The notes beneath the pieces are model-generated. The model was not told the origin of the DNA and did not search any database. It worked only from the letters and a program-made list of their open reading frames with translations. A stretch of DNA of 42,996 bases from a virus. Positions 44-33,609 of this stretch are shown here, piece by piece; position 1 is the stretch's first letter, and every line of letters begins with the position of its first letter. Both the position numbers and the translations under genes were made by a program. The stretch covers positions 1 through 42,996 of the IMG/VR virus record IMGVR_UViG_3300032282_004968. One strand, 5' to 3'.

Positions 44-131
44 GCCAAAAAATCAAAACAAAAGGCTCCGCACACCACTGTGTACGGAGCCCTGATAGCC
101 GCACTCACGGCACACCACGAAGTGTTGTGCC
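44..131 (-). terminator. Tandem hairpins and U-tract ending the tail sheath transcript
   Basis: Read on the minus strand just after the sheath stop codon. The first hairpin (109-131) has a 9-bp stem with one mismatch and a CTTCG loop. The second (64-91) has a 7-bp GGCTCCG/CGGAGCC stem with an inner ACAC/GTGT pairing. It is followed on the minus strand by a T-rich run (63 down to 44), the classical layout of a factor-independent terminator. It closes the virion gene to its right and supports the TAG at 131-133 as a real stop. Confidence 0.8.
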
Positions 132-3100
132 TAGATTGACGAGCGCAGGCTGAAAGTGATGACCACGTAGAGTAGCGGGAATACGGGAGCAATCGCTGCC
201 GTAACCTCGCAGACTGTGGGGTCATCAGGGCTTACGCGGGCGGAAACGCCCGTGAAGCCCGTGATGATCTGGGCTTGCACCAAGTCTTTGAGGGTCGAGG
301 ACAGTTGGCCTTCGATCTGACTTGTGATCCCGGGCAGGAATTTGACACCTACGAAACGGTCGAGCGTCGCGCGGGCCTGCTTTTGAACCTCATCTGCGAT
401 CTGAATCACAGTGGGTGTCTTTGTCAGGATGTTGGACATATCCGTCGTGAAGCCTTGACGGATGCGGATTACCGGGTTGCGGTCTTCGAGAATCGTGACG
501 CCGCGAACGGCGACCTGATTTTGCTGGACCGCATCCAGCACTCGGGCGAGACGGTCAAAGCCGAAGATGCGGGTGTTCGTCCATGGCGTAGCAACATCGA
601 CCGTGGGGGCGACGCGCGTACCTACCACAGAGGCCGCGAGGAACGTACCGTCCACCAGATACGAATCGTTCGTGCCGTCCGCCCGGGAGAGGGTCAGCGT
701 GGCGATATCGGGGTAGACCATACGCATACGGGTACGAGCGACACCCGCAGCAATATTGCCGGCGTCACGGGGCTGTGTGCCTGCCGAAAAACCGCAAACG
801 GCCGTGCGTTCGGCGCGATACCGGATGCTCGACTGAATGTCACAGTGTTTGGCCAGATACGCGAACAGCGACGTATCGTCACCCTTCAGCGGGACCAAGA
901 TATCGGGATAGACACCGCCGGGCAGGGCGCCTTCAACGGCATCAATCGCCGCGATATACGCAGCGGTGGAAGCGGAGTCGTTGTTACCGTCCGCGTTGCT
1001 ATCCTGGTCTTTCTCTACCTGCTTGACGGCCACAAGAACCGCACCGTTCAAGAACGTCAAGTAGCTGGCCAGCGTCACGGGGTTTGTCGGACTATTAGGA
1101 CCGTAAGCGGCTTCAACCGCGCTCAGGCGGGTGTAAAGCTGCGTTGAGAAGTCCTGCTTCCGATAGTTGTAGGAGACATAGTATACGTCACCTACGGCCG
1201 GTTGTGCCCCGCTACGATTATGCGTCGTGACCAGTGCAGTGTCGCCCACGCCCACACCCGTCGTGTTCGCCACGATAAGTTGGAGACCGGGGACCGCGTA
1301 GGTCGGCAGATTCGAATCGCACGTTGCGATGGCGCGGACCTTTAACGTGAAGCTCTGACCAATCGGGTAACTTGCCCCGCCTGCACGATCCAGAATCGTG
1401 AAAGTCAGGCCCGTCACCAAGTCGCGGTAGGTCTGGCCCACTTGACCATCCTGACCTACGCCGCCGTTCAGCAAGGAGTTGTTGGCCGAACCCGAGCCGT
1501 TGACCGGATCGGACGAGGTAACGAAGAAGCCGTCGATAGCCGCTTCGCCCACATTGCCGTCACCCGCCACAACGCCGAGGCCGACGCCGGGATACAAAAT
1601 AGAGCCCCCGGACTCAAACGCCACGCTGGACGAATTACCGAGAGTGAGGCTTTGCAGATACAGATAATCTGCGCCTGCCTGATTACTCACGGTCTTAGCG
1701 ACCGCAAGCTCCGTGAAGTAACCTGCGTCCGGACCCGTGAAGTCCAACAGATAGTCAGCAACGCTGGCATTCGCGTGGGCCATGAGGCCGGAAACGAGAA
1801 CCTGCGGAGTCAAAACGGTGCGGCTAGAGGCCGCGTTCGTGCTCAACCCGAGGGTTGCATTCGCATTACCGCTGCCGATGACAATCTGAGCCGAGGCTTC
1901 CGACGAACCGGAACGGAAACGAATGCCCGCGCCTTCTTGCTGGACGGAGCCTGTACCCGTGATTGCGGCGTTGATCTGCCACAAAATCGTGTTGGCCGTC
2001 CCGATAGGGCCGAAGGGCACGTCAGCGGACCCGCCAACAGGAATGGCCGCGCCCGCGTCATCCGTGAACTCCACGGTGTAGGGCTGGCCATCCATCGTGA
2101 ACTTGAACACATTGTTCTGATCAACAGTGCCGCCAGAGGCGTAGAGGGTCAGGAGCGGTTGACTGTCACGGGCATCGCCATAGGCCGATGCCTGGTCTGT
2201 ATAGCTCACGCGGCCAAAAGCCGTCGCCTCCAAAACCGTAGCGCGAAGGCCCGCGTAACCACGCTCTTGCGCGACCAAGCCAGCCTGGGAAGCACCCGTG
2301 CCGCCGACGATCTGCAACTCGCATTGATCAAGCTGGGACTGGCCGTCGATAGAGCCGGAACCAGGGACGATGCGGTTGCGAATGATGATGCGGTCGTAGA
2401 GCAGCGGAGAACCGCCGAGGGACATGCTACGGGCAATCTCGCCTTGGAACAGCTTGGTCTGATTGCCGAGAGCCGCAGCGTCGGTGCTCAACCCCGCTGT
2501 GATGCAGAAGTCACGAGCGGGGGCCGCGTTCGTGATGAACTCCAGGAAGCCATTGTTGTCCGTACCATCCAGCGTAAGGGCGAACTGTAGCTGACTCGAT
2601 GTGTTCGCCGTAACGGCCACGCTGAAGGTGCCGCCGCCAATCGCCGCCGTCAACGCCGCATCCACAGCAGCGGCCAAAGCCGAGGCCGTGTTGTAGGTGC
2701 CCGCTGCGATTGTCGCCGTCAAGTTACCCGAGGCACCTGACACGTCACCCGTGTAGTGCAGGGTGATTCGGTCGTATTGACCCACAACCACCGTCAGCGG
2801 ACTAGAGAACCGCGTCGTCGCCAAAAGAACCGGGGCTTCTGCCAACGCCGCCGTGTTGATCGCCGAAACATAATCCGCGACCGTAGCTGCGACATTTGCA
2901 CCGGCCACCGCCTGGATCAAAACACCGTCTACCATGAGATCGATAGCGTCGTTCGTCGCGTCAATCTCGAAGGTTGAGCCGCCCGTGGCCGGATCGTAGG
3001 AAACTTCGTTGCCGACGATCTGAGCGAAGAAGCCACAACCTGCGTTTGTCGGGTCACCCAGGTCCACCGAGATTGACGATCCGTCAACGGCCACATCGAA

Positions 3101-5026
3101 GCCATCGGATTGGCTATTGATGGGGTAATACGGACCATGCGAGGGCACCGTATATTTTGCGGGGGTGGCTGCACGGGCGGCAAACTCGACGGTCACGTCT
3201 TCCGCAACCGGACCCTCGAAATCCGTCGTCGTGTACGGTGTTTCCAGACGGGCGTCCGGCAAACGCTCGCTGCCCGAAGGGAATTGAATCTGAACGGTCG
3301 CCAGACCGGCAGACTTTGACCCGAACGTCGGAATATAGACGGTGTTGCCATCCTGGTTCGTGATCGAATATGTGCCAATACCAGACGGACCCGCCGTCTC
3401 GGCCTTGACCGTGTATTCCACATCCTGAATGGTGTTGTAGTAGAACGTCGCGTAGACTTCCGCGCCAACAGGCACCGGCTCGGCCAACGTGATCGTCGCC
3501 GTGTCCGACTCAACCTTAATGACCGTCACACGCCCGCGTTCGATGGCATCTTGGAGTGAGAAGCCCCAATAAGCCCAAACCAGATCCGGGCGGTTTGTCG
3601 GAAGATCGACGCGGCCGTTGGCCACTTGGTTGAAGGTCGTAGCGCCGAGGGGGCTGTTACGACCGTTGCCCGTGGTTGGCGTCAGAGGCAGGATGAACTG
3701 CTTGCGATCTTCTTGCGCTGGATTGACACTGGTATTGACGTAGGCTGCACACAACGCCAGATATTCACGAACGTCAACGAGGGTGGGCAACACCTGTGTC
3801 TCGTTCAAGTAGTCGGTGCCTGTCGTGTGTGTGTCAGGACTCACAACAACGGCGGTGCCCCACAAAATCTGGTCATCCTGGAGAACGAAGTCCACATTCT
3901 CCACGAAGTCGTTGCGATCTGGAGTCAGACCGCAAAGCGTAACTTCGGTCACGTCACGATTGACAAGATAGTCGAAAGTGTCTTGCCACGAGTTGAAGTA
4001 ATACTGGATTGTTACCTTAGAACCGGATTGAGGTGCGAAAGGCAACGTCACAGCCCCGGACTGGCCATCGACAGCCGTGGGGATGACCTGAACGTTATCG
4101 ACCTTGACTGTCATGTCTGCGGGATCTGTGGTGGTCACGCCACCATTGGACCCGTCCACGACAGGACGCTGGAAAACGTAGAACGTCTTGTTACGACCCG
4201 TGTAGCTCCCCGACGTAAAACCCAGGGTGGCATTTAGGGAGCCGTTGCCAATCGTGATGTTGCGGTTTGCCGTGAGCTTGAGTACGGTTTGGCCAAAGTT
4301 GTTGACTGCCGTGCTGGCAACCAAGCTTGTGCTGGCAGCGGCACCATTGACGAAGGCTGCAATCTGGGCAGCGGTCCAACCTCCGACCGGAGAAGCGGCG
4401 ACGGTGACGGTAAGGGTTGTCGTGTCGTCAACCGTCAAGGTAAGTTCGTCATTGGTGCCGGTGACGACGGTGTAGCTCTGACCAACCGCACCATACAGGA
4501 CGCCTGCGTTTGCCGTAACCTGATCACTCAAGTCATCCGTGATCAGCGTATCTGTACGGTTGAAATAGTAGGTCACCCGCACGTCATCCGTCGAGGCGGG
4601 CTTGACAGACAAGCGCAAAATGCCACGGGCACCATCCATGCTCAAAACAACGACGGGGATGCCGTTGACCGTAACGGCAATCGAAGCCGTATCGGTCGCC
4701 GTGGTACCTGTGCCATTCCCCGTCACGATGGGGAAATTACGGACCTGAATGCGATCATAAGTGCCGTTGAATGCGCCAAGCGACACTTGACCCGCTGGGC
4801 TGATGCTGGTGACAGCGCGACCGGCCTCATCTTCCTGGACAACACGTTGGTCTACAGACGAGGACGAACCGCGAACCAACTCCACTGCCGACTGCGACAG
4901 GATCTCAGACCCGGGGCCGAGGATCAGTGGTATGCGTGCTGCAACGCCGGCCCCTGCATTGGGGGGGTTGAAGTTCGTCTGTGTGTAAACACCAGGAGGT
5001 GCGTAGATTCCAGAAGGGAAGGCCAT
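131..5026 (-). CDS. Contractile tail sheath protein, greatly enlarged
   Basis: Predicted 1631-residue tail sheath subunit, the protein that polymerises around the tail tube and contracts during injection. The N-terminus (MAFPSGIYAPPGVYTQ) has the usual sheath start, and the last ~250 residues (from about 'VYPDILVPLKGDD' to 'VVITFSLRSSI') look like the conserved sheath C-terminal domains. Most sheath proteins are about 400-700 residues, so roughly 1000 residues are extra. The extra part is rich in beta-type segments and contains recurring phrases ('YDRI..RN' twice; 'TYYFN', 'QYYFN', 'TFYYN' each before an acidic turn), suggesting serial beta-sandwich decorations. ATG at 5026 is chosen because GGAG lies 7 nt upstream; an in-frame TTG six bases earlier is too close to that site. 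It stops with TAG, directly followed by a terminator. Confidence 0.85.
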   Translation of the reverse strand: MAFPSGIYAPPGVYTQTNFNPPNAGAGVAARIPLILGPGSEILSQSAVELVRGSSSSVDQRVVQEDEAGRAVTSISPAGQVSLGAFNGTYDRIQVRNFPIVTGNGTGTTATDTASIAVTVNGIPVVVLSMDGARGILRLSVKPASTDDVRVTYYFNRTDTLITDDLSDQVTANAGVLYGAVGQSYTVVTGTNDELTLTVDDTTTLTVTVAASPVGGWTAAQIAAFVNGAAASTSLVASTAVNNFGQTVLKLTANRNITIGNGSLNATLGFTSGSYTGRNKTFYVFQRPVVDGSNGGVTTTDPADMTVKVDNVQVIPTAVDGQSGAVTLPFAPQSGSKVTIQYYFNSWQDTFDYLVNRDVTEVTLCGLTPDRNDFVENVDFVLQDDQILWGTAVVVSPDTHTTGTDYLNETQVLPTLVDVREYLALCAAYVNTSVNPAQEDRKQFILPLTPTTGNGRNSPLGATTFNQVANGRVDLPTNRPDLVWAYWGFSLQDAIERGRVTVIKVESDTATITLAEPVPVGAEVYATFYYNTIQDVEYTVKAETAGPSGIGTYSITNQDGNTVYIPTFGSKSAGLATVQIQFPSGSERLPDARLETPYTTTDFEGPVAEDVTVEFAARAATPAKYTVPSHGPYYPINSQSDGFDVAVDGSSISVDLGDPTNAGCGFFAQIVGNEVSYDPATGGSTFEIDATNDAIDLMVDGVLIQAVAGANVAATVADYVSAINTAALAEAPVLLATTRFSSPLTVVVGQYDRITLHYTGDVSGASGNLTATIAAGTYNTASALAAAVDAALTAAIGGGTFSVAVTANTSSQLQFALTLDGTDNNGFLEFITNAAPARDFCITAGLSTDAAALGNQTKLFQGEIARSMSLGGSPLLYDRIIIRNRIVPGSGSIDGQSQLDQCELQIVGGTGASQAGLVAQERGYAGLRATVLEATAFGRVSYTDQASAYGDARDSQPLLTLYASGGTVDQNNVFKFTMDGQPYTVEFTDDAGAAIPVGGSADVPFGPIGTANTILWQINAAITGTGSVQQEGAGIRFRSGSSEASAQIVIGSGNANATLGLSTNAASSRTVLTPQVLVSGLMAHANASVADYLLDFTGPDAGYFTELAVAKTVSNQAGADYLYLQSLTLGNSSSVAFESGGSILYPGVGLGVVAGDGNVGEAAIDGFFVTSSDPVNGSGSANNSLLNGGVGQDGQVGQTYRDLVTGLTFTILDRAGGASYPIGQSFTLKVRAIATCDSNLPTYAVPGLQLIVANTTGVGVGDTALVTTHNRSGAQPAVGDVYYVSYNYRKQDFSTQLYTRLSAVEAAYGPNSPTNPVTLASYLTFLNGAVLVAVKQVEKDQDSNADGNNDSASTAAYIAAIDAVEGALPGGVYPDILVPLKGDDTSLFAYLAKHCDIQSSIRYRAERTAVCGFSAGTQPRDAGNIAAGVARTRMRMVYPDIATLTLSRADGTNDSYLVDGTFLAASVVGTRVAPTVDVATPWTNTRIFGFDRLARVLDAVQQNQVAVRGVTILEDRNPVIRIRQGFTTDMSNILTKTPTVIQIADEVQKQARATLDRFVGVKFLPGITSQIEGQLSSTLKDLVQAQIITGFTGVSARVSPDDPTVCEVTAAIAPVFPLLYVVITFSLRSSI

Positions 5027-5176
5027 GTTCAATCTCCAAAAATTGAGTGCAAGCAGTCGATGTGTCAGTACCCCGAGTGATATAGACAGATTAATCTAGC
5101 TAGGTGTATCGTCATCCGTTGTAATGTGCTTCTACCAGCAATGTGCTGTGTCAGATATGAAAGGACGACCCCCGCC
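5027..5176. promoter_or_regulatory. Divergent intergenic region between sheath and zinc ribbon gene
   Basis: About 150 bases separate the minus-strand sheath gene from the plus-strand FmdB-like gene, so promoters for both should lie here. It is AT-richer than its surroundings and holds a short palindrome (AGATTAATCT near 5087-5096) followed by CTAGCTAG. The sheath ribosome site (GGAG) is at its left end and AAAGGA for the plus gene at its right end. I cannot name a specific promoter box with confidence. Confidence 0.4.
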
Positions 5177-5650
5177 ATGCCCATTTACGAATTCGGTTGC
5201 CGAAAGTGCGGGCTGAGATTCGAAAAGATTGCCCCCAGGATGACGGCCGATAAATCTGCGTCATGCACTTCTTGTGGGGCTGATGCCGAGCGTCTAGTCT
5301 CTGCGGCATCTTTCTCTTTTGCACACACACCCGTCAATGGCCCTGTACCCCAGAATACGGGGGTACATGGGATTGACTACAATCCAGATCAGGTGATTGG
5401 TCGAGACGCGGCGGAAAAGTGGAAGACGATTGAGGTGCGAAACAAAGCGAAAGATGAAGCAATCCGGGATGCCCGCCGTGAGGGTAAGAACGTAATCTCA
5501 CGGGACCAACTCGCCAAAACGGCCGAGGGCTATCGACCGATCACTGAAAAAGAGCGTGCGGCTGCCAACGAAAATCGTGTCATGGCCAATGATGTGAACA
5601 AGGCGATCTCTGATCAGATCAGGTCTACCAGAAACACGGAGAAGACGTGA
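5177..5650 (+). CDS. FmdB-type zinc ribbon protein
   Basis: 157-residue protein starting MPIYEFGCRKCG, the hallmark of the FmdB-type putative regulatory zinc ribbon family. A CxxC pair (CRKC) and a second one (CTSC) about 20 residues on should bind one zinc ion. The remainder is a charged, helical, lysine- and glutamate-rich tail. An in-frame GTG exists 51 bases upstream, but the ATG at 5177 matches the family start and has AGGA 11 bases before it. The stop overlaps the GTG of the next gene (GTGA), so the two are translationally coupled. It is one of two plus-strand genes embedded in a minus-strand structural block. The function in phages is not established; a DNA- or protein-binding role is an inference. 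Confidence 0.7.
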   Translation: MPIYEFGCRKCGLRFEKIAPRMTADKSASCTSCGADAERLVSAASFSFAHTPVNGPVPQNTGVHGIDYNPDQVIGRDAAEKWKTIEVRNKAKDEAIRDARREGKNVISRDQLAKTAEGYRPITEKERAAANENRVMANDVNKAISDQIRSTRNTEKT

Positions 5651-5907
5651 ACGACGAGGAATGGCTTGCCACACACAACTTCGTATTGATCCGACCTGGA
5701 TGCTATCGGTCAGTTGTTGGCGGCAAGCATTGGCTCACGCTTTTGTGTGAGTGGGATGGACTCGAAAATCGACCTGAGTGGGAACTTGCTGGCGCGGGCG
5801 TTGTAGGACATGGGAGCAGCCCACAGGCTGCATACGCAGGCTTCCAGAAAGCGATACTATCCCGCGTTGAGTCCCTACAGGACTTGTCGGTCTTGCTTAC
5901 CGAATGA
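5647..5907 (+). CDS. Small hypothetical protein coupled to the zinc ribbon gene
   Basis: 86-residue protein of unrecognised family. It starts at GTG 5647, overlapping the previous stop as GTGA, with GGAG just upstream. The sequence is compact and globular-looking, with several tryptophans (EEW, HWL, CEWDG, PEW). Its 3' end overlaps the end of the convergent structural gene by 11 bases, which is typical of a packed phage genome. No catalytic motif is visible. Confidence 0.6.
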   Translation: MNDEEWLATHNFVLIRPGCYRSVVGGKHWLTLLCEWDGLENRPEWELAGAGVVGHGSSPQAAYAGFQKAILSRVESLQDLSVLLTE

Positions 5908-7123
5908 TCTCGAACTGATCGTTCCGGTTTACAAAAAATGGATCGCGGATCGCTTGTAGGTTCATGTTTTGATAGACATGAATGCCTGTCGGGCTGCCCG
6001 TAGCGTAAAGCTGGTCCCCGGATAGCCCAGAAATGGCTTCCTCTTCTTCCAGGGTGTTCGGCAGAATACGGTTGAATTCCCAGTTCAGGGGCACATGCAC
6101 GGACCATTCAGTCTGAAGGGTCAGGCTGACAGACGCCGTGTAAAAGTAGTCGTCTGCGTTCTCGTCATAAGCCTCTTCAGCTTCGCCCCCCATACTTACT
6201 TGGGAGAGGTCGATGCCCTCGCCTGCAAAACGTGCCCGCAAGTCCGTATAAAGGAACATGATCGTTCGATCTGTAACTTCGCCCGTGGCAAGTACGTCGC
6301 GAGTCATCACGTCCATGTCGAGGTTGATCTCCCACCGCCCGCCATATTCCAAGGCACAGGCTTCGCGAGAACGTCCAACGACAACGGACATGACATCGTT
6401 CTCCTGGGCGCGGCGGCCAAAGGCAAGCACCACTCCAGGGATCGCGTTGTTATTCGATCCGTTGACCGGAAGCAAAAAAGGTCCCCGACTCTCAGCCGCA
6501 TACCGATAGTCTATGGAGAAATAGGTGTTCGGTGCGGGCGGGTCGGTGAGCGTAATCTGTCCTGTTGCGGGGTCCGCACTATACTGGATGCCCTCATACT
6601 GGACGATATTCCCGGGCATCTCATACACCCGGAGGCTTCCAGGATGGAAAGCACCATGGGAAACCTCCAACAACCTAGGCCCGAGCGTTATGGGGCGCTC
6701 ATCCAGAATTTCCAGGAGCGGGTCCACATAGAACACCAGTTGTTCACTTGGAGTCGGTGACCCATAGGGTTCACGCAAAACCTGTATGTAATACACCCCA
6801 GGTGGAGATGGAAACCGTCCTGCATTCCGCTGAATCGCAAGGCCGTCCTCACGAACCCACTCAATCGAGTGGCCAGGATGCCCCAGAACACGAGTCAGAT
6901 TAACATAGCTAACGACAGTGCCCTGGAAGTGGTCTGCGCTCAGGCTTTGAGCGTTGGCGCTCGCGCCTTTAAGGATGATCCCTTGTTGGGGGCGCTCTTG
7001 GAAGGAATATCGACCTTGAATGTTCGGGACAAGCGAGTCCCGATAATTCGGGTCATCGGACCAGAATCGACGAAGCTCTTGGAGCAATCGCCGCTTTATC
7101 GACTCAGTGAGGTTTGCGAACAT
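5897..7123 (-). CDS. Putative virion structural protein
   Basis: 408-residue protein I cannot assign to a named family. It is rich in beta-type segments, glycine and proline, with hydrophobic strands such as VVSYVNL, YYIQVL and VVLAFG, and its C-terminal third ends in an acidic turn region followed by 'ASVSLTLQTEWSVHVPL'. This composition and its place in the sheath/virion block suggest a neck, tail-completion or baseplate component. The ATG at 7123 has no Shine-Dalgarno sequence; instead a perfect 7-bp hairpin sits immediately before it. It is downstream of the small basic gene at 7146-7397, separated by about 22 bases. Confidence 0.55.
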   Translation of the reverse strand: MFANLTESIKRRLLQELRRFWSDDPNYRDSLVPNIQGRYSFQERPQQGIILKGASANAQSLSADHFQGTVVSYVNLTRVLGHPGHSIEWVREDGLAIQRNAGRFPSPPGVYYIQVLREPYGSPTPSEQLVFYVDPLLEILDERPITLGPRLLEVSHGAFHPGSLRVYEMPGNIVQYEGIQYSADPATGQITLTDPPAPNTYFSIDYRYAAESRGPFLLPVNGSNNNAIPGVVLAFGRRAQENDVMSVVVGRSREACALEYGGRWEINLDMDVMTRDVLATGEVTDRTIMFLYTDLRARFAGEGIDLSQVSMGGEAEEAYDENADDYFYTASVSLTLQTEWSVHVPLNWEFNRILPNTLEEEEAISGLSGDQLYATGSPTGIHVYQNMNLQAIRDPFFVNRNDQFEIIR

Positions 7124-7145: not shown

Positions 7146-7397
7146 TTAAGCGTGCCCGACCGTTGTGACGCTTTCGGCCAAGGCTGCGGAAAGTTCTTCC
7201 GGGGATGATGCCTGGAATGCCGGGAACCCCGGCATGGGAACGAAGGATAGTGCGAGCCCGCCTCGGGTGGTCAGATTGCTCCAGCGTGCGGAGCAATCCT
7301 GACCCTCATAGGTCCAGTTCAAATGACGGGCTTCGTGAGAAGCAGCGCGCTCACGCTGCTTCTTTTTCCTGGCCTTATGTTGTGCTTTTCTCGACAT
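7146..7397 (-). CDS. Small basic-headed hypothetical protein
   Basis: 83-residue protein of unknown family. Its first ~20 residues are strongly basic (MSRKAQHKARKKKQRER), suggesting nucleic-acid binding or electrostatic packing. The rest is a mixed, apparently folded segment with WTYEG and a proline/phenylalanine-rich patch. There is no clear Shine-Dalgarno sequence at the ATG; a long imperfect hairpin lies directly upstream. It is in line with the flanking minus-strand virion-type genes, so a minor virion or assembly protein is plausible but unproven. Confidence 0.55.
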   Translation of the reverse strand: MSRKAQHKARKKKQRERAASHEARHLNWTYEGQDCSARWSNLTTRGGLALSFVPMPGFPAFQASSPEELSAALAESVTTVGHA

Positions 7398-7486: not shown

Positions 7487-9184
7487 TCACGCAGCGTGTG
7501 CGCTTTCGCCCTGCTTCCACTTCCTGAAATCCTTGACGACACCATCCCGGAACCTCTTGTCCTTCATGGCGGTCGAGAAGGTCACCTCTTTGAACCGATC
7601 TCGGTTTTCGGGATTTGGGTTGCGGACCTTCTTCTTGCCGTCATCCCACTTGGTCTTCATATACTTGTCGAAACCCGAAAACTCTTCCTTCTTTTTGTCC
7701 TTCTTGGCCTTCTCAGCGGCGGCTTTAGCCTCTTCAGCTTCCCGTATCGGGCGGTTCACGGCCGCGATATCCAAGAGCTTGGGCACGTCAGATTTCGCCA
7801 AAGGGGATGACCCAGATGTCCAAGGATGGGTGGTATCCCAATCGAATCCCAAATCGAAAGAGATGCCGCGACCTTTCGAATAAAGGTTCTTGCCCACCTC
7901 GGCGCTCCAAGACGGAGAGCCATCAGCCTTAATCGCCGCGACGGCCTTCTTCTGTTCAGGGTAATACATGCCAATTACATTGTCCTTGGACTTGTAGATG
8001 ACAGCATCCTGCTTGAAGTGGTCCCCGAGCTTGTGCAAATCCTCAAAGGATATCTCAGGCACCATGTAAGACCTCTCGGTGTGGGTCTTACCTTTCTTGT
8101 CCTTCCACTTGCCCTGCACTGGATACAGTTTCTTGTATCCCATGTCCGCAAGCATACGGATCAGTTCGCCGCTGCTATCCTGATTTTCGGATTTCGAGGA
8201 GTCCCCTCGGTACGGGGACAAAACCCCGAAGGACTTACCCAAACCCATCAATGCTTCGACGTTCTTCAAACGAAGCTCGTCTGCCTGACGGTCCAAGCTT
8301 GCCTGATGATACGTGGTCTGCGGCAGGAAAGACCAAGCAGCCATGAGACGCCGATGGTGTTCGGCCGCAGGCTTGATGCTAGGATCTTCCGAGTCCAAAA
8401 CTAGCCGGCTCAGGGTCGAAGCACCTTCGCTACCGGGATGCTTCAAAATCTCAGTCGGTGTCGGAGGCGCTCTCCGTACAGCGGAGAGAACGTCACCGTC
8501 ACCATGGATCTCCGCAATGTCGTGCCCCACGTCCGATATATTTGTAGGCGCACCAGACTCCGCAAACTCGCGTGTCTCACGCTTTCGCGGATTCTTGAAG
8601 AAGTGACCTTCGGCGGATGGCGCTGACCCCCCTCGCATCGAACCTGAATAGCCTATGAGGGCCTTACGACTATCGGGTACGGCTTTTGGGCGGGACGCCT
8701 GCCTGTCGAATCCCTCGTCAAGTACCTGCTGAAGAAGATAGATGTTTGACTCATGGGCATTTGCTGTTGCCATGAGCCAATCGTCCAACCCAATGGGCAT
8801 GGGGGAACGTTCTGGCCAGACATCAAACACGAAAGACAGGGCCTTCTGAAGCTCCTGTTCAGACAGAAGCCCCCGTCGAACCATGTCTTCTTCGGCGTGC
8901 CACCGCTCGATCATGTCATTGATCAAAGTCAGCGAGACTTCCAAGTCCACAGCGGGCACACCAAAGTAGCCCACCAGTTTCTCGCCGATGGCGTCAATCT
9001 CAGCCTGCACGGAACCGTACAGACGCTCAAATAGCAGATGATTACCGTAGTAATTCGGGCCACGGGCCTGCCAATGACTCGTCTGGTAGCTAAGAGCTTG
9101 TGCCCGCAAAATCGCCAAGACGATGCGGAGCATCGGCAGGACTTCTTCGCGGATCGAAGCGTCAAGGTAGGCTTTTCGTTTCAT
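7487..9184 (-). CDS. Protein with N-terminal Dps/ferritin-like domain
   Basis: 565-residue protein. Residues about 10-170 resemble the Dps/ferritin-like four-helix bundle: 'SYQTSHWQARGPN', then a second histidine in 'NHLLFERLY', then 'EIDAIGEKL', in the order of the Dps ferroxidase motif (HW..KGP, H..F..LY, D...E). A closing helix contains 'NAHESNIYLLQQ'. The middle is a low-complexity linker. The C-terminal half holds a separate alpha/beta segment and then a highly charged Lys/Glu region (EEAKAAAEKAKKDKKKEE). ATG at 9184 is chosen because GGGGA lies 5 bases upstream; the in-frame TTG further up lacks a site. Dps proteins bind DNA and store iron; fusion to a long tail in a virion-gene neighbourhood suggests a DNA-packing or virion role, which is inference. 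Confidence 0.6.
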   Translation of the reverse strand: MKRKAYLDASIREEVLPMLRIVLAILRAQALSYQTSHWQARGPNYYGNHLLFERLYGSVQAEIDAIGEKLVGYFGVPAVDLEVSLTLINDMIERWHAEEDMVRRGLLSEQELQKALSFVFDVWPERSPMPIGLDDWLMATANAHESNIYLLQQVLDEGFDRQASRPKAVPDSRKALIGYSGSMRGGSAPSAEGHFFKNPRKRETREFAESGAPTNISDVGHDIAEIHGDGDVLSAVRRAPPTPTEILKHPGSEGASTLSRLVLDSEDPSIKPAAEHHRRLMAAWSFLPQTTYHQASLDRQADELRLKNVEALMGLGKSFGVLSPYRGDSSKSENQDSSGELIRMLADMGYKKLYPVQGKWKDKKGKTHTERSYMVPEISFEDLHKLGDHFKQDAVIYKSKDNVIGMYYPEQKKAVAAIKADGSPSWSAEVGKNLYSKGRGISFDLGFDWDTTHPWTSGSSPLAKSDVPKLLDIAAVNRPIREAEEAKAAAEKAKKDKKKEEFSGFDKYMKTKWDDGKKKVRNPNPENRDRFKEVTFSTAMKDKRFRDGVVKDFRKWKQGESAHAA

Positions 9185-9196
9185 ATCTGTCCCCAA

Positions 9197-9637
9197 TCAC
9201 ATGCACTGAGAAGCAGTCTTGAACTTATCGCCGTACTTCTCTTTATTCGCAGCCCAATCATCTTGAACAGACTTAGGCTGAGTCTTGAGCCACTTCTCGA
9301 AGCCGGCCGTATCACCCTCTTCAAAGCGGGCGTACCGGCGACGTGAACCACCGCTCTTGAGCATGGCATTCAACTCGGCCTTAATCGCCTTGGCCACCGG
9401 ACCACGCCACCGGGTTGCGTTGCTGAGGAAATACCGGACAATCATATCCCCGGGATCTGCGCCGTAATTATCATCCACGGACTCTAACTGCGCCATCGCA
9501 GCCATATACGGACGGGCGCCAAAATACACGTCTTTCCAATCGCGAGCGATTTCGCGAGCAATTTCGTACAGCGGGCGGGAAGCAATCTTCATCGCCGCTG
9601 TGCGGGACTCGAAAGCAAGCTCAACGGGCAATTTCAT
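9197..9637 (-). CDS. Conserved phage hypothetical protein (virion block)
   Basis: 146-residue protein. Its 'VYFGARPYMAAM' stretch and 'MIVRYFLSNATRWRGPVAKAIKAEL' region resemble a small conserved protein found in large phages, of unknown role. It looks mainly helical. ATG at 9637 is preferred because GGAG sits 6 bases before it; the ATG twelve bases upstream overlaps that site. It lies 12 bases before the Dps-like gene and is probably co-transcribed with it. The ending is lysine-rich (KEKYGDKFKTASQCM). No catalytic residues are apparent. Confidence 0.65.
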   Translation of the reverse strand: MKLPVELAFESRTAAMKIASRPLYEIAREIARDWKDVYFGARPYMAAMAQLESVDDNYGADPGDMIVRYFLSNATRWRGPVAKAIKAELNAMLKSGGSRRRYARFEEGDTAGFEKWLKTQPKSVQDDWAANKEKYGDKFKTASQCM

Positions 9638-9687
9638 GGTAGACTCCATAGTCTTGTGCTCAAAGCACGGTTACAAGTCAAAAAGAC

Positions 9688-18616: not shown

Positions 18617-19582
18617 CTACACTTTCTCCAGATAAAGCAGCACCCGTTCTCGCACATATTCGGGCAAGTCCGGCATAGCCCTGACTGCATCCGAAAGTGT
18701 GTGTCCATGCCCAATGGGCACCAAGGCGTCTCGAATATGCTCCACAAACGATGCCATCTCTTCTTGCTGCCGTACTTGACGATCCCTGCCCGTTAAGTCA
18801 AATACTTCTTCGGGAGGTGGCACCCTAATCCGGACGGTCTTGATCTCCAAAGGCTTGCCCCGCTCCGCTGTGATCAACACGCAAGCGGGCTGACGGCTCA
18901 GGTCATCCTGAGACAATGTGCCCCGAGTCAAACTGCCGACGTTCACGAACGTCTTGCCCCCCATGTGTTCGACACCTTGGTCTTTATGCCAGTGTCCAAA
19001 CATGAAGCAATCCGGGGCTGTGCCCAGCAAGTCCGCGTATTTGACGATGTCCTCACCCTCGAACATCGTGCCACCTTGCTTCGATGCGAGCACATGAGCG
19101 GCACAAATCAGGAAGTCTTCATCGCCACGCTTTATTCCCGTGAACCGGGTCATATCGTATGACGTTCCGTGATACGGAACACCGACGACACGGACCTTTA
19201 CGCCATCTTGAACGAAGGTGGCCTCATGTTGGTCATACAACGGGCGAAAGATCCCGGCTGCATACAAGACCCCAAGAGGCTGTTGGGGCAGGAATGAGTA
19301 GTCACCGTAGATGCAATCGTGATTCCCCGGCACGCAATAAATCGGGCACGGGTAATTCGCGTGATGCTCTGCCGTGCGACGAACGAGTTCATGCGAATTT
19401 CGAGACGGGGCTTTCACATGAAAGAAGTCCCCGCCATCGATGATCGCATGGGCGTTGACCTTGCGGGCATAATCCCGCACTCGACTGAGTTTGTCGAATA
19501 CGGTGCTCGCCCAATCGTCCGTGCGTGACGCGGGTGGACGGTCGGACAGATGCACGTCAGTTCGCCATACCAGCCGGATCAT
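18617..19582 (-). CDS. Mre11/SbcD-like double-strand break nuclease
   Basis: 321-residue calcineurin-type metallophosphoesterase. The five metal motifs are present: D9-x-H11 (TDVHLSD), GGDFFH (50-55), GNHD (86-89), H163 in 'AAHVLA', and GHWH (196-199). This is the nuclease partner of Rad50, equivalent to phage T4 gp47. The C-terminal ~70 residues form the capping/Rad50-binding region. The ATG overlaps the methyltransferase TAA (TAATG). The stop is TAG. Partners are the two separate Rad50-like halves, one on each side of this gene (20915-22084 and 15591-16232). Confidence 0.9.
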   Translation of the reverse strand: MIRLVWRTDVHLSDRPPASRTDDWASTVFDKLSRVRDYARKVNAHAIIDGGDFFHVKAPSRNSHELVRRTAEHHANYPCPIYCVPGNHDCIYGDYSFLPQQPLGVLYAAGIFRPLYDQHEATFVQDGVKVRVVGVPYHGTSYDMTRFTGIKRGDEDFLICAAHVLASKQGGTMFEGEDIVKYADLLGTAPDCFMFGHWHKDQGVEHMGGKTFVNVGSLTRGTLSQDDLSRQPACVLITAERGKPLEIKTVRIRVPPPEEVFDLTGRDRQVRQQEEMASFVEHIRDALVPIGHGHTLSDAVRAMPDLPEYVRERVLLYLEKV

Positions 19583-20826
19583 TATCCCTCATCGTTACCA
19601 AATAGATCGAACACGGAATCCGATTCTGAGGATTCGGATTCCCCCGATTCCTCAGAATCGGGAGGGCTATCACCAAGAATCCTAGACTCAGCCAACTTCG
19701 CGTATTCGGGGTTCAGTTCACAACCCACAAAGTTACGTCCAAGACGCAGGGATACAGCCCCCGTAGTGCCTGATCCCGTGAAGGGGTCAAGAACTAAACA
19801 GGGGACGGGTTTATGCTCGGGACACTTGCAGGTAGGTTCCCACGATTCCGATACAAATGCCCCTGGAAAAAACCGACCCCCTCGGAGGACTAGACCATCA
19901 GGTCTTCCCGGATTGTATGTGTTATTGCGTCCAACGATGCCCGGACCCCGCCCCACCACACGCCCCCACGGTGCCCCGCACGAAGGGCAACAGCCGATTT
20001 CGCTACTGCCTGCGAGGACCATTGGCTCTACCAGCTTCTCGGGGAAAGTAGCAAAGTGAGCACCCGTGTAGGGTTTAACCTTAATGGACCAAACCGAACG
20101 ACGGTTTCTACGGTCTCCCACCAAAGTATCATGCTGCGAGAAACCAGCCGAAGTGCCACCAAACACACCTTTGGCCGCGTTTTTTGCTGTTTTAGAGTCG
20201 CTTGCTTTAACCAAAGCACCCGCGCAATTAGCGGGTTCCATGATTGCCGTCGAGTCAAAGTAATAGCGGCTACTCTTAGATAGAAGAAAGATATACTCGT
20301 GGGCTTTGGTACAGCGATCCGTCATGCTTTCGGGCATTGGATTCGGCTTGTGCCAAATAATATCCTGCCGCAGCCACCAACCGTCTGCTTGAAGGGCTAA
20401 AGCGACACGCCAAGGGATGCCAACAAGGTCTTTGGGCTTGAGCCCGGTGGACTTTCGCCCACGCCCGATGCCCGTGGCACCATGCAGCGACTTGACGTGC
20501 TTCCCTCCGCTGGAGCCGCCCCACTTGTCATCGTTGGCGTAGGAGTCACCCAGGTTCAGCCACAGCGTCCCGTCGTCCCGCAGCACGCGGCGAACCTCGC
20601 CAAACACCTCGACCATCTTGGCGATGTATTCATCTGGCGTTTGCTCAAGCCCGATCTGCCCGTCATGTCCATAATCGCGTAGCCCCCAATAAGGCGGGCT
20701 CGTGATGCACGTCTGAACTGAGTTTTCCGGTATTGACTTCAAGGACTCGATACAATCCCCGATGTAAATTGTCGCGGAGTTTCGAGAGTCACCAAAGCCG
20801 GGAGTCAGGATGATCTTGTCGCTCAA
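19582..20826 (-). CDS. Site-specific DNA methyltransferase (adenine-N6 or cytosine-N4)
   Basis: 414-residue beta-class amino-methyltransferase. Motif IV is TSPPYWG (42-48) and the AdoMet-binding motif I is DPFTGSGTTG (347-356), in beta-class order. 'SPPYWGLRDYG' is common in solitary phage and type II enzymes. A zinc-ribbon-like insert lies before motif I: CPSC (280-283) with CKC (333-335). The last ~25 residues are a Ser/Glu/Asp repeat encoded by a long hairpin. The start is TTG 20826 with AGGA six bases upstream. No restriction endonuclease gene is adjacent, so it probably protects phage DNA or modulates expression. N4 versus N6 specificity cannot be told from sequence. Confidence 0.85.
   Translation of the reverse strand: MSDKIILTPGFGDSRNSATIYIGDCIESLKSIPENSVQTCITSPPYWGLRDYGHDGQIGLEQTPDEYIAKMVEVFGEVRRVLRDDGTLWLNLGDSYANDDKWGGSSGGKHVKSLHGATGIGRGRKSTGLKPKDLVGIPWRVALALQADGWWLRQDIIWHKPNPMPESMTDRCTKAHEYIFLLSKSSRYYFDSTAIMEPANCAGALVKASDSKTAKNAAKGVFGGTSAGFSQHDTLVGDRRNRRSVWSIKVKPYTGAHFATFPEKLVEPMVLAGSSEIGCCPSCGAPWGRVVGRGPGIVGRNNTYNPGRPDGLVLRGGRFFPGAFVSESWEPTCKCPEHKPVPCLVLDPFTGSGTTGAVSLRLGRNFVGCELNPEYAKLAESRILGDSPPDSEESGESESSESDSVFDLFGNDEG
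19621..19660. repeat. 17-bp inverted repeat inside the methyltransferase tail
   Basis: 19621-19637 pairs with 19644-19660 with a single mismatch and a 6-base loop. It lies in the last codons of the methyltransferase, within the Ser/Glu-rich repeat. The mRNA would fold into a very stable stem just before the Mre11 start at 19582. Confidence 0.75.
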
Positions 20827-26101: not shown

Positions 26102-29100
26102 CTATTCAGGTCTAAAAACGAACCCCCCAGCAAGGCTAGATCGCACTATCCTTGCTGCGAGCAGGGTCTTTCGATGTTCAGCGGAATCGTTCTGAACGGC
26201 CTTCGAAATTGCCGATGCCTGTCCGACAATGAGCACCCGTTTTTTTGCACGGGTGATTGCTGTGTAGAGCAGATTACGCTGCAATTGCCGACCAAATGTG
26301 GCCAGTAGGGGCAACACGATCACGTCATATTCCTGGCCCTGTGAATTCCAGCCCGAAAACCCATTTTGGATGAACTTGTGAGTGCCCGGTACTTCGACAC
26401 ACATGGACGGTCCCCAAGAGGGGACCACACTCACAATTCGCTCGTGATGATGACGTGCCCGAATCCCCAGCATCGGGATATGCCGCACGGCAATATCCAC
26501 AGGGGCTCCTGTAAATTTACCTTGACGGTAAATGACCGAGGCTTCGCTAGAAGTCAACGGCACCCGTTCGTCATCGGGATATGTCAGACGTGCTCGATTA
26601 GCAAGTCTGGCGGCATCCGGATGGTCGAAGCCAATGCGACTCAGAAAACGGTCGAGACTTCGGCCACGGATCGTGATGTTGTTCTTCATGCGACAACGGG
26701 CGAAGATGCCCTCGTCGAGAAGCATCGCCCGAATTGCGATGTTTGCGTTCTCGGACCAGCATCGTATCCAGATATTATCTACTAGGCTCTCAGTGTCGTC
26801 CCAAACCTCATACTTGGTCATGGACGACAGGAAGTATCCGCGCAAAAAAGACCTGCGAATTGACCGGCTTGAAGCAAGAATTAGTCGTGGGATGCCCTTG
26901 CCGTGTTCTGGGTACATCTCAGGGAAGTGCTGCCACAACCAATGCGTCACATGATTCCCAAACAGGCGAAAGCAATGCGGCTTGTCCAATTCGAGGATCT
27001 GTGGACAGATGCCGAAATGCCTCAAAAAGCCGCTGTTGATCTTGTCCAGGAGAAGGACGACATCGTTTCGACCGCAAGAATACATCCGAGTATGGAGCCA
27101 TGGGCTCATGTTCGTGCTGAATCCACAGCGCCAGAATTTCGAAAAGGCCAGGAGCATTCCGAGAAATTCTGCGAAGTCCTCATCCAAGATCAAAGGGGTC
27201 TTTACACCTGCAACAGGATCAAATTGATGCGGCGGGCGCTCCGCAGATACGGATGGCCCTGGGACCATATACAACCAATCGTTCTTCTTTACCTCTTGAG
27301 CTTCTTTGCGTACATAGCGACCCTGATCGCGGTCCCAAACATCCAATCCATGTTCAGGGGTCACGTAAATCACATAACCACCCTCGGTCTTTACCTTCAA
27401 GAGCGGGCCGGCAGGGTACTCGCTCTTATTGTGATAGGTCTTCAACCCATCAGGCGCGCTGATAGTGCCGTCAGTCGGTAGATGGCGGATCTGATGCAGC
27501 CCACCGTCGTGCCACGTAATTGTGGTCGGATGCACACATTTGTGGATTGTCTGTGCATAGGCCAAACGCAGCATTTTTGCTGCATCCGACATTGAAAAGC
27601 GGACGGTAGCAGAGGGCATTCCGGGAATGCCGAAAATGCTAGCCTCGATTTCTTTCGCGGCGCGGTCGATACGACGAATTGTGCCCACGTCGCCATTGAA
27701 CACGCCTTTCTGATAATCGTTTTTGACAATGATGATGCGGTCACCTTCGCGGACGACCGACCCACCAAGTTTCGTTTCACTCATGCCCGACATCGGTGGG
27801 TTTAGCTGGGAACGAATCCGGTCGTTGAGCGCGGTCACACCTGCCCCCCCTGAATGGCGAGGGGACAGCACTTGAAAGTTCTCCCGCTTCTCGTAGAGCT
27901 TCTGGGAAATACGCAGAATCAAAGACGCGGCTTCTTCTTCCGAAGAAGCCGGAAGAAGAACAAAATCCCGTCCATCGGACTCCGGTGCCGTCCCCCTATG
28001 AACTGCGTGTGCAGCGAGAACAATGCCGCTGGTGCCCTCTTGACGAAACACGCGGTCCAAATGGACATGCGGGAACACCTTGCTCTCGACCAGATCCCCC
28101 AGAACGTCACCGGCACCCACGGAGGGTAGCTGATACGGGTCACCTACAAAAACCAAACGGCAGTCTGGCCGAGTCCCCAACAAGATACGATTGATCATGT
28201 TGAGATCAACCATGGAAGTCTCATCCACGATGAGGATTTCAGCAGGGTGTGGGTTATCAGGACCGAAGCCCCAACTGGCCGTGTCTGCCGATGACTTCTT
28301 GCCATCGCCATCCCCAAGAAAGCCCTCGTAGGCAACCTCGCGATCTTCAGCCTCGTACTTGCCCCGAGCACCGAAAGCGCGATGAATCGTCGAGGCATCG
28401 GCATTCACGACGTTCGAAAGTCTTTTGGCTGCGATACCCGTTGGTGCGGCCAAAAGGAAGCTGATCCCTGCATCTTTGAGCAGCGTGACTACCGCCCTTA
28501 AAGCCGTTGTCTTACCGGCACCCGGCAAACCCGTAATCAAACTCACATTGTCCGTCAATGCGGATAGAGCAGCCCGCAACTGATCTTCCGTCAACATGAC
28601 GCCGGAACCAGCGGACCAGTCCGCCAAAGCCGCCCTCACGACGGTCTTGAGACTTGCATCAGCGTTCACAGCCGCTTCCGTCTGTGGACCGACACGGGCA
28701 AAAAGTTTACGGAAGTCCTTCTTGGACTCCATCTTCAAACGAGCGACCAAAGCCGCTGCAACGGAACACTCGACCTCATACAAATCCGGCTCATATAGGG
28801 CCACCGTGCCCGGGAGGGTCACGCGATCCAGAATCATCTGGTCATCCCGGACAAGATCCTTGACTGCTGCGGCTACCGAAACATCCGTAGCGTTTGGAAT
28901 CAAGGTTAGAACGTTCGACAGGATGTCGTTCATGGAGGCATAGACGTGGCCATCCCCAAATGAATCACCCATCGTGGCCAAGACAGCCCCGCACAAACGC
29001 CCTGGGGAATCCAGCGGAACCCCGAGCTTCATTGCAATTTCATCGGCCTTGCCAAATGTGATGCCGTCTACCTGAACAAGTGCCCATGGATTCTTTGTGA

Positions 29101-29614
29101 CAATGGCTTCAACGTCAGTGGAATATTTCTTCCACACGCGGTCGATCACGGATGCGGGCACACCGGCATCTGCCAGAAATGCCGAGGCGTATAGATGCGC
29201 CTTGGCAGCCTTCCAGCGTTCTGTGACAAAAGACAATTCAGACGGCAGGGAGTCCGAGTCGAGGACTTCGAGCAAAGCCTTGCCGTTTGCATGATTCGAC
29301 AGAGACATCCTGATTGTCGGACCTACGCCTTGGGCCGACAAAATGTTCAAGATGCGGTCGTCAGTCCAGGTCTTCGGGACAACCGGAGACTTGATGACGG
29401 ACACTTGTCGACCGTACACGGCATGTACGGTGTATGTGCCCTCAAAGCAAACCCACGTTCCCGGGACAATGACCTGTCCCGGGAAATGGCCTTTAGCCGT
29501 GACCGTTGATTTGCCTTCGTCTAGGACGATTTTAGCAATGAAGAAATCAGCGCCGTCGTTGTAAGTGACGGCGCTGACTCTGCCGCTGAAGGTTTCGGTG
29601 TGGGTATCTGCCAT
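26102..29614 (-). CDS. recD: RecD-like helicase interrupted by an intein
   Basis: 1170-residue precursor; removing the intein leaves a 772-residue superfamily 1B helicase of the RecD2 type. The N-terminal ~340 residues are the OB-like and helix-hairpin region. Walker A is GLPGAGKTT (362-370), 'APTGIAAKRL' (390-399) is motif Ia, and Walker B is IVDETSM (462-468). 'VFVGDPYQLPSVG' is motif III, 'VFRQ' is motif IV, and 'TAITRAKKRV' is motif VI. The intein splits the motif 'TIHK|SQGQEYDVIVLPL'. The ATG at 29614 lacks a ribosome site and lies inside a palindrome. It ends in TAG; reading on, the frame reaches a TAA that overlaps the next gene's ATG. The likely role is 5'-3' unwinding in replication or recombination. 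Confidence 0.9.
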   Translation of the reverse strand: MADTHTETFSGRVSAVTYNDGADFFIAKIVLDEGKSTVTAKGHFPGQVIVPGTWVCFEGTYTVHAVYGRQVSVIKSPVVPKTWTDDRILNILSAQGVGPTIRMSLSNHANGKALLEVLDSDSLPSELSFVTERWKAAKAHLYASAFLADAGVPASVIDRVWKKYSTDVEAIVTKNPWALVQVDGITFGKADEIAMKLGVPLDSPGRLCGAVLATMGDSFGDGHVYASMNDILSNVLTLIPNATDVSVAAAVKDLVRDDQMILDRVTLPGTVALYEPDLYEVECSVAAALVARLKMESKKDFRKLFARVGPQTEAAVNADASLKTVVRAALADWSAGSGVMLTEDQLRAALSALTDNVSLITGLPGAGKTTALRAVVTLLKDAGISFLLAAPTGIAAKRLSNVVNADASTIHRAFGARGKYEAEDREVAYEGFLGDGDGKKSSADTASWGFGPDNPHPAEILIVDETSMVDLNMINRILLGTRPDCRLVFVGDPYQLPSVGAGDVLGDLVESKVFPHVHLDRVFRQEGTSGIVLAAHAVHRGTAPESDGRDFVLLPASSEEEAASLILRISQKLYEKRENFQVLSPRHSGGAGVTALNDRIRSQLNPPMSGMSETKLGGSVVREGDRIIIVKNDYQKGVFNGDVGTIRRIDRAAKEIEASIFGIPGMPSATVRFSMSDAAKMLRLAYAQTIHKCVHPTTITWHDGGLHQIRHLPTDGTISAPDGLKTYHNKSEYPAGPLLKVKTEGGYVIYVTPEHGLDVWDRDQGRYVRKEAQEVKKNDWLYMVPGPSVSAERPPHQFDPVAGVKTPLILDEDFAEFLGMLLAFSKFWRCGFSTNMSPWLHTRMYSCGRNDVVLLLDKINSGFLRHFGICPQILELDKPHCFRLFGNHVTHWLWQHFPEMYPEHGKGIPRLILASSRSIRRSFLRGYFLSSMTKYEVWDDTESLVDNIWIRCWSENANIAIRAMLLDEGIFARCRMKNNITIRGRSLDRFLSRIGFDHPDAARLANRARLTYPDDERVPLTSSEASVIYRQGKFTGAPVDIAVRHIPMLGIRARHHHERIVSVVPSWGPSMCVEVPGTHKFIQNGFSGWNSQGQEYDVIVLPLLATFGRQLQRNLLYTAITRAKKRVLIVGQASAISKAVQNDSAEHRKTLLAARIVRSSLAGGFVFRPE
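26345..27538 (-). mobile_element. Intein in the RecD helicase, with degenerate homing endonuclease
   Basis: 398 residues (693-1090 of the precursor) inserted between 'AQTIHK' and 'SQGQEYDV'. It begins with Cys ('CVHPTTITWHDGG'), contains a TxxH block B ('VTPEHGLDV') and ends in 'THKFIQNGFSGWN' before Ser+1. The terminal Asn is present, but the usual penultimate His is Trp. The centre has two remnants of the LAGLIDADG (DOD) endonuclease blocks: 'AEFLGMLLAFSKF' and 'RSFLRGYFLSSMT'. In both, the acidic residues that hold metal are gone. Splicing is probably retained because RecD is likely essential; homing activity is probably lost. Confidence 0.88.
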
Positions 29615-32988: not shown

Positions 32989-33609
32989 ATGGGAATTCAA
33001 AGAGGGATCTACCTTTTTGTAGATACGAAGATCGAGGGTTCTGACATACCCGAAAACAAAGCTATCGTTAGGGGTAGCAGAGCAAATCAATCGTTCTTTC
33101 AACTACTGAACTCTCAAAAGAAGTTAAACTACTTCTAGTAGATCCTCAACTATAGTCTAAAGACTAGAGGATACGAAGTAGACTCTAGTAGAGAAGATTT
33201 AGTAGAGCTGAATGAACATGAAGCTCACAAAAAAGCGAATAACAAGACAACGCAAAATCAGAAAACAACCAGTAGTAAGAGTACGAATGAAATGAGTACG
33301 ATGACGACGATGATGAATCAGACAGTGAATTCAAATCAGAGTGAGAGTAGTGAGATGAAGATGAGTAGTACGATAGAGAGTCAGATGAATCAGGTTAAGG
33401 TTGTTCAGGTGAAGGTTGTTCAGGTGAAGGTTGTTGTCCAGTAGGTTGTTCAGGTGAAGGTTGTTGTCCAGTAGGTTGTTCAGGTGAAGGTTGTTGTCCA
33501 GTAGGTTGTTGTCCAGTAGGTTGTTCAGTAGCTCGTTGATAGTGGGAAGCAAGAGACGAGTAGATCCTACTAGGTATCTTATCAAGCGGTTCAAGGTCTG
33601 AAACCTTGA
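32989..33609 (+). pseudogene. Open frame interrupted only by TAG codons
   Basis: From ATG 32989 to TGA 33607-33609 one frame has 206 codons with no TAA or TGA but eight TAG codons (33136, 33139, 33442, 33472, 33502, 33517, 33529, 33571). The first 49 codons read as an ordinary protein (MGIQRGIYLFVDTKIEGSDI...), and after TAG-TAG comes 'ILNYSLKTRGYEVDSSREDL', then a Thr/Ser/Met/Gln-rich stretch and the 15-bp repeat. The other two plus frames are full of TGA and TAA. The frame ends 17 bases before the next ATG, as a gene would. The segment is AT-rich and purine-rich compared with its neighbours. It may be a decayed gene, a suppressed or recoded gene, or not coding at all. Confidence 0.35.
33398..33532. 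repeat. Nine 15-bp tandem repeats of two alternating types
   Basis: Units of AGGTTGTTCAGGTGA (type A) and AGGTTGTTGTCCAGT (type B) in the order A A B A B A B B A-variant. Fifteen bases keep any frame open as five-residue units. On the minus strand they would encode Pro/Gln-rich pentapeptides (SPEQP, TGQQP). On the plus strand the open frame reads VVQVK/VVVQ-TAG. The units are nearly identical at DNA level, pointing to recent expansion by slippage or recombination. Confidence 0.9.

Follow-up and report, generated by a model that had tools for sequence, protein, structure and literature searches.

A large-phage gene joining a Dps-like domain to a predicted SAM lyase domain

The gene and its surroundings

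The stretch of DNA analysed here (the window) is a 43-kb virus record that is probably a fragment of a larger phage; the phage itself is large and contractile-tailed. On its minus strand, one uninterrupted open reading frame runs from an ATG at 9184 to a stop at 7487 (7487-9184) and encodes a protein of 565 residues comprising a Dps-like domain, a conserved motif, a predicted SAM (S-adenosylmethionine) lyase domain and a charged tail. A frameshift artefact was rejected. Downstream lie the gene for a 408-residue protein (5897-7123, minus strand), which is conserved beside the Dps and sheath genes in relatives, and then the gene for a tail sheath protein of 1633 residues (131-5032, minus strand; PHROG 2839, 3e-23). 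The family match covers only residues 1275-1629 of the sheath protein, the remainder of which looks like a large added region. Between these two genes, on the opposite strand, a zinc ribbon protein is encoded (5126-5650, plus strand; Zn_ribbon_8, 2e-12), whose cluster is present in 14 loci, often adjoining the sheath.

Upstream, a gene of unknown function (9197-9649, minus strand; PHROG 13953) is followed by genes for a sigma region 4 protein and a DnaX-like clamp loader and, further away, by those for a SAM-dependent N6/N4 DNA methylase (19582-20826, minus strand; 1.5e-47), RecA and a RecD2-like helicase of 1170 residues (26102-29614, minus strand). The preliminary description had placed the fusion gene next to sheath and tail genes, which is correct for its downstream side but not for its upstream side, where the sigma-like factor, the DnaX-like protein, RecA and the helicase are found. 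With a tail block on one side and a replication block on the other, the gene thus stands where the two meet. The helicase contains a weak match to an intein-splicing family (PF14890, residues 736-957; 5e-5, below the cut-off), possibly marking an intein. Two tandem repeats were also seen in the window: a 30-base unit at 33390-33531, encoding a PTGQQPSPEQ-like peptide repeat, and a 15-base unit repeated 16 times at 40918-41157, inside a VWA-domain gene (39817-41961).

The Dps-like and lyase-like domains

Residues 1-165 (8690-9184, minus strand) form a Dps-like domain. A phmmer search against the PDB matched this region to the Dps protein 5i4j (E=3.9e-9), and the NCBIfam model DpsA matched it at 6e-11, yet below that model's cut-off; the Pfam Ferritin match was weak (E=0.007) and under its cut-off. 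The nearest phage group is PHROG 3636. A profile built from 65 phage relatives matched 53 PDB sequences, essentially all of them Dps, with E-values down to 5e-11. Taken together, the phmmer match, the DpsA match and this profile rule out a chance resemblance. A plain host-derived Dps gene was rejected as well, the search patterns having matched 1 contig among about 85,000 species genomes.

An N-terminal Dps domain with a ferroxidase pattern had been proposed earlier from the DNA letters, and both parts of that proposal were borne out. H37-W38, H49, E53, D64 and E68 (8981-9076, minus strand) are exactly in place, and the pattern aligns without gaps to the solved Dps 2d5k, with the same spacing (H..12..H..4..E..11..D..4..E). 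Across the 65 relatives H37, W38, H49, D64 and E68 are invariant, and position 53 is variable (E, Q, D, A or N). The patterns used to find these relatives included H37/W38 and H49, but neither D64 nor E68, so the invariance of the latter two is not circular. Furthermore, an AlphaFold2 model of the domain, built with the 65 relatives, has the expected four-helix bundle together with a BC helix, with residues 9-163 mostly at pLDDT >90, and superimposes on PDB 8ff9 with a Z-score of 18.7 (rmsd 2.3 over 150 aligned residues). In Dps proteins the ferroxidase site sits between two subunits.

The remainder of the protein had been described as a long tail. It is indeed long, but a putative SAM lyase domain within the C-terminal 280 residues, apparent from Pfam and from the predicted fold and accounting for much of that length, had gone unrecognised. 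SAM lyases convert SAM to MTA and homoserine lactone. On sequence and model, we assign residues ~317-455 (7820-8236, minus strand) to a SAM lyase (PII-like) domain. Residues 321-413 match the Pfam family S-AdoMet_lyase (PF23780) at 7.2e-9, with 36.1 bits against a curated cut-off of 28, and DUF3293 (PF11697) at 5e-7, above its curated cut-off; PHROG 2226 is matched at 4e-9. DUF3293 is largely unstudied, and our literature search found no paper on it. Distant lyase relatives came from Rctr197k, a 618-kb phage, Cronobacter phage GAP227, Campylobacter phage CP220 and others, the GAP227 and CP220 proteins matching PF23780 at 2.6e-31 and 4.8e-18, respectively. In alignments with these relatives G358, E370 and Q392 are invariant and correspond to Gly56, Glu69 and Gln104 of Svi3-3, which are the only strictly conserved residues among proven SAM lyases; in Svi3-3, mutation of Glu69 lowers activity 1500-4500-fold (PMC7877911). 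Ser71 of Svi3-3 is kept as S372, Tyr58 is replaced by W360 and Glu105 by D393.

Confidence in the model of this domain is moderate, with a mean pLDDT of 59.6 and values of about 65-88 in the core. Its four best fold matches are T3 and Svi3-3 SAM lyases (Z 10.7, 10.5, 7.6 and 7.1), including T3 SAMase 8bb1 (Z 10.7, rmsd 4.4, 115 residues aligned) and Svi3-3 6znb (Z 7.6), and PII proteins are matched at Z 6.1. Neither the isolated domain nor a profile of it gave a significant match among PDB sequences; the assignment is based on the Pfam and PHROG matches, the conserved residues and the predicted fold. When viral contigs were scanned for the C-terminal part by itself, no relative was found; the lyase relatives surfaced only once Rctr197k and the 618-kb phage were added, and among 49 other phage records PF23780 gave one match, below the cut-off. 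DUF3293 domains were also seen inside two very large phage open reading frames, L095:697-6345 (at least 1883 residues) and L097:1-6321 (at least 2107 residues). The charged tail that ends the protein (residues 456-565; 7490-7819, minus strand), with a predicted helix at residues 474-512 and a small terminal fold, has no relative among the collected loci.

A phage-specific motif and the gain of the lyase

Between the two domains, residues 189-290 (8315-8620, minus strand) carry a conserved phage-specific motif (SAEGxFF..REFAESGAxTN..PPTPxEI..STLxR), with HMM matches in about 25 other phage Dps-like loci. Its arrangement differs between them: it occupies a separate open reading frame in L014 and L064 and precedes the Dps domain in L052, and differing inserts separate the Dps domain from the motif in L009, L011, L012, L015, L017, L020, L022 and L031. 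Long open N-terminal extensions, often very basic, occur in L029, L034, L039, L048, L050, L053 and L056. A block (PQRDRVLPLPSGHPEGR...KPLHQRPRSSGLPGDQYGHPYID) lies upstream of the Dps domain, in frame or in an adjacent gene, in L029, L034, L050, L053, L056 and neighbours. We also observed a recurring tag, LRSKVIRLAHxxPxLRPHLLPLLK, of which ten distinct copies are found in large-phage open reading frames (L044, L051, L052, L064, L092 and L099), two of them in the Dps fusion L064 and one in each of the lone SAM-lyase-like frames L092 and L099. Among annotated isolates, tblastn found the layout of Dps domain plus motif in LR745208 only.

The motif opens with S190-A191-E192 (8609-8617, minus strand). 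A [STAG]xE triplet stands at this point in 21 of 23 relatives, compared with 15% of random 8-mers from the same open reading frames. The prohead proteases of giant phages cleave after SXE or AXE, and head proteins processed at these sites are ejected by such phages (PMC5694885). By analogy, we infer that S190-A191-E192 is a possible prohead-protease cleavage site.

The nearest relatives, L006 and L055, have Dps domains 77% identical to that of the fusion and share its gene order (DnaX, sigma, ..., Dps, 408-residue protein, sheath). Their proteins end where the motif ends, without a lyase, and DNA similarity picks up again at the next gene (7123). Thus, the window carries an extra block of about 1.2 kb, which holds the lyase, the charged tail and an 83-residue open reading frame (7146-7397, minus strand) with no family match. 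The lyase fusion occurs in 1 of about 67 loci. These sequence comparisons indicate that the lyase is a recent gain in this phage; loss from both L006 and L055 would be less simple because all other relatives lack it. Positions 9217-9335 of the window, within the upstream gene 9197-9649, match two adjacent stretches of L006:7375-7613, as if duplicated there.

Possible roles and known systems

We consider it somewhat probable that the gene product forms a ferroxidase particle of the Dps type, bearing an anti-restriction enzyme that destroys SAM. Sequence and predicted fold show the domains, the residues of their active sites and the late arrival of the lyase; how the subunits assemble, that both domains are active, what they act on, and when and where they do so, we infer. 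The N-terminal domain would probably assemble into the usual 12-subunit ferroxidase particle, and the phage-specific motif that follows would be an attachment point for interchangeable modules in this virus family, the module in the present phage being the SAM lyase domain. Dps 12-mers possess three-fold axes. As SAM lyases are trimers with active sites between subunits (PMC7877911), the two symmetries would allow four lyase trimers per particle, seated on these axes. The lyase may destroy SAM or a SAM-derived molecule, and the loss of SAM would disarm SAM-dependent defences (for example type I restriction or BREX), as with the T3 SAM lyase, while the Dps part would oxidise iron and bind it, and would protect phage DNA or associate with it. 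The preliminary description had suggested a DNA shell or a defence against oxidative stress, a reading that agrees with the Dps fold and the ferroxidase residues but overlooks the C-terminal domain, which points towards counter-defence. Counting against a particle that carries an active lyase are the moderate confidence of the lyase model, W360 and D393 in place of Tyr58 and Glu105, and the single occurrence of the fusion. In addition, the same phage has the SAM-dependent DNA methylase, whose work a SAM lyase would impede; the two activities would therefore have to be separated in time or place, whether through early action of a packaged particle or, equally, through timed expression.

It is quite possible, if a little short of an even prospect, that the protein is never packaged, with the Dps part curbing the damage that iron does to replicating DNA and the lyase acting as a cytoplasmic, T3-like SAMase. 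In the window, a block of replication and transcription genes ends with this gene; Dps genes of other phages have been interpreted as oxidative-stress genes (PMC8008677, PMC6669764), and T3 makes its SAMase early, as an intracellular protein (PMC8406200). However, terminase, portal, capsid or sheath genes lie no more than about 8 kb away in 35 of the 67 non-redundant loci (DnaX and a sigma gene are each present in 17), neighbourhoods that are compatible with a virion-linked Dps-like protein. The conservation of the phage-specific motif with its SXE-like start also speaks against a purely intracellular protein, as does the particle proteome of SU10, in which a Dps-domain protein was represented by six peptides (PMC4281155). 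When a library of predicted viral structures was searched with the Dps model, the matches included a 754-residue protein labelled ParB/Sulfiredoxin and proteins of 333, 432 and 763 residues labelled prohead protease, these labels being the library's names of structural matches, taken as given. The loci, the library matches and the SU10 proteome are points in favour of a possible virion association for this Dps-like family.

A stronger proposal, which we regard as unlikely though worth serious attention, is that virions contain the protein in their heads and eject it along with the DNA, as a Dps-based effector carrier, so that the SAM lyase acts before phage gene expression. Besides the virion-gene neighbourhoods, the SU10 protein and the library matches with a Dps-like part, the modular inserts and the motif in separate open reading frames would suit such a carrier, as would the SNF2-type helicase gene directly after the Dps gene in 6 of the 67 loci and the ejection of SXE/AXE-processed head proteins by giant phages (PMC5694885). 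Yet the SU10 preparation also contained non-structural proteins, such as DNA polymerase (PMC4281155), some relatives sit outside virion blocks, and a 12-mer of ~760 kDa would be too big to pass the tail intact. Rather unlikely, in our estimate, is the full form of this proposal, a cargo scaffold in the head in which Dps accompanies the packaged DNA, the motif serves for packaging or prohead-protease release, effectors are swappable, and the SAM lyase arrives together with the genome and clears SAM ahead of restriction.

Two further alternatives concern the lyase-like domain itself. That it lacks activity and has a trimerising or binding function instead seems improbable: DUF3293 is little studied and W360 and D393 depart from Svi3-3, but the domain retains G358, E370, S372 and Q392, and the Glu and Gln are invariant across very distant copies, conservation that would be superfluous in a dead domain. 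It is distinctly improbable that the domain is a SAM-AMP lyase, an anti-CRISPR whose substrate would be SAM-AMP, the signal molecule of type III CRISPR, instead of SAM. SAM-AMP lyases, including the candidate AcrIIIB4, share its fold, Glu and Gln (PMC12255297), and 9gad is among the fold matches (Z 5.4), but SAM lyases match better, and the strictly conserved Cys66 that SAM-AMP lyases have besides Glu71 and Gln108 is without counterpart in a 565-residue protein that is free of cysteine, although the C66A variant stays active. Finally, an assembly chimera is very improbable, since, despite the single copy found, the frame is uninterrupted, both flanks agree with L006 and L055, which makes the extra block internal, and the G+C of the lyase part (0.52) resembles the rest.

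Phage Dps proteins and phage SAM lyases are each known, but the combination of the two looks new; we found no report in the open-access literature of both in one protein. The fusion suggests a carrier that may help viral DNA to survive host defences. Dps genes recur in phages and have been seen as oxidative-stress genes, whereas the present family suggests another use, as a phage-specific Dps carrier that is often encoded near packaging and tail genes and has other domains attached, and the attached SAM lyase offers a direct test of this idea. If the particle is in the virion, an anti-restriction enzyme would arrive with the DNA and need no prior expression, unlike in T3.

With Dps and mini-ferritins (8ff9, 6lkp, 2d5k and 5i4j) the fusion protein, known here from sequence and model, shares the fold, the helix order with its BC helix, and the ferroxidase residues and their spacing, but it adds the phage-specific motif and 400 further residues. 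Its likeness to the T3 SAMase (7ock, 8bb1) and Svi3-3 (6zm9, 6znb) lies in a PF23780 match over the cut-off, the predicted fold and G358, E370 and Q392; these enzymes, however, are small stand-alone proteins, whereas the lyase domain here is the C-terminal part of a 565-residue Dps protein and has W360 for Tyr58. The Dps genes of Gratiaviridae and Lactobacillus phages likewise encode a phage-borne Dps domain, but were interpreted as oxidative-stress enzymes, with no fusion described (PMC8008677, PMC6669764). The polyvalent proteins of phages and conjugative elements (Iyer et al., 2017, PMC5512222) provide another comparison. Dps and ferritin go unmentioned in that paper, and Pfam finds no hub domain of that class in the fusion, but both combine unlike activities within a single phage protein. 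Moreover, the Dps genes of relatives have SNF2 helicase and ParB-like genes as neighbours, and DUF3293 lies inside the L095 and L097 open reading frames.
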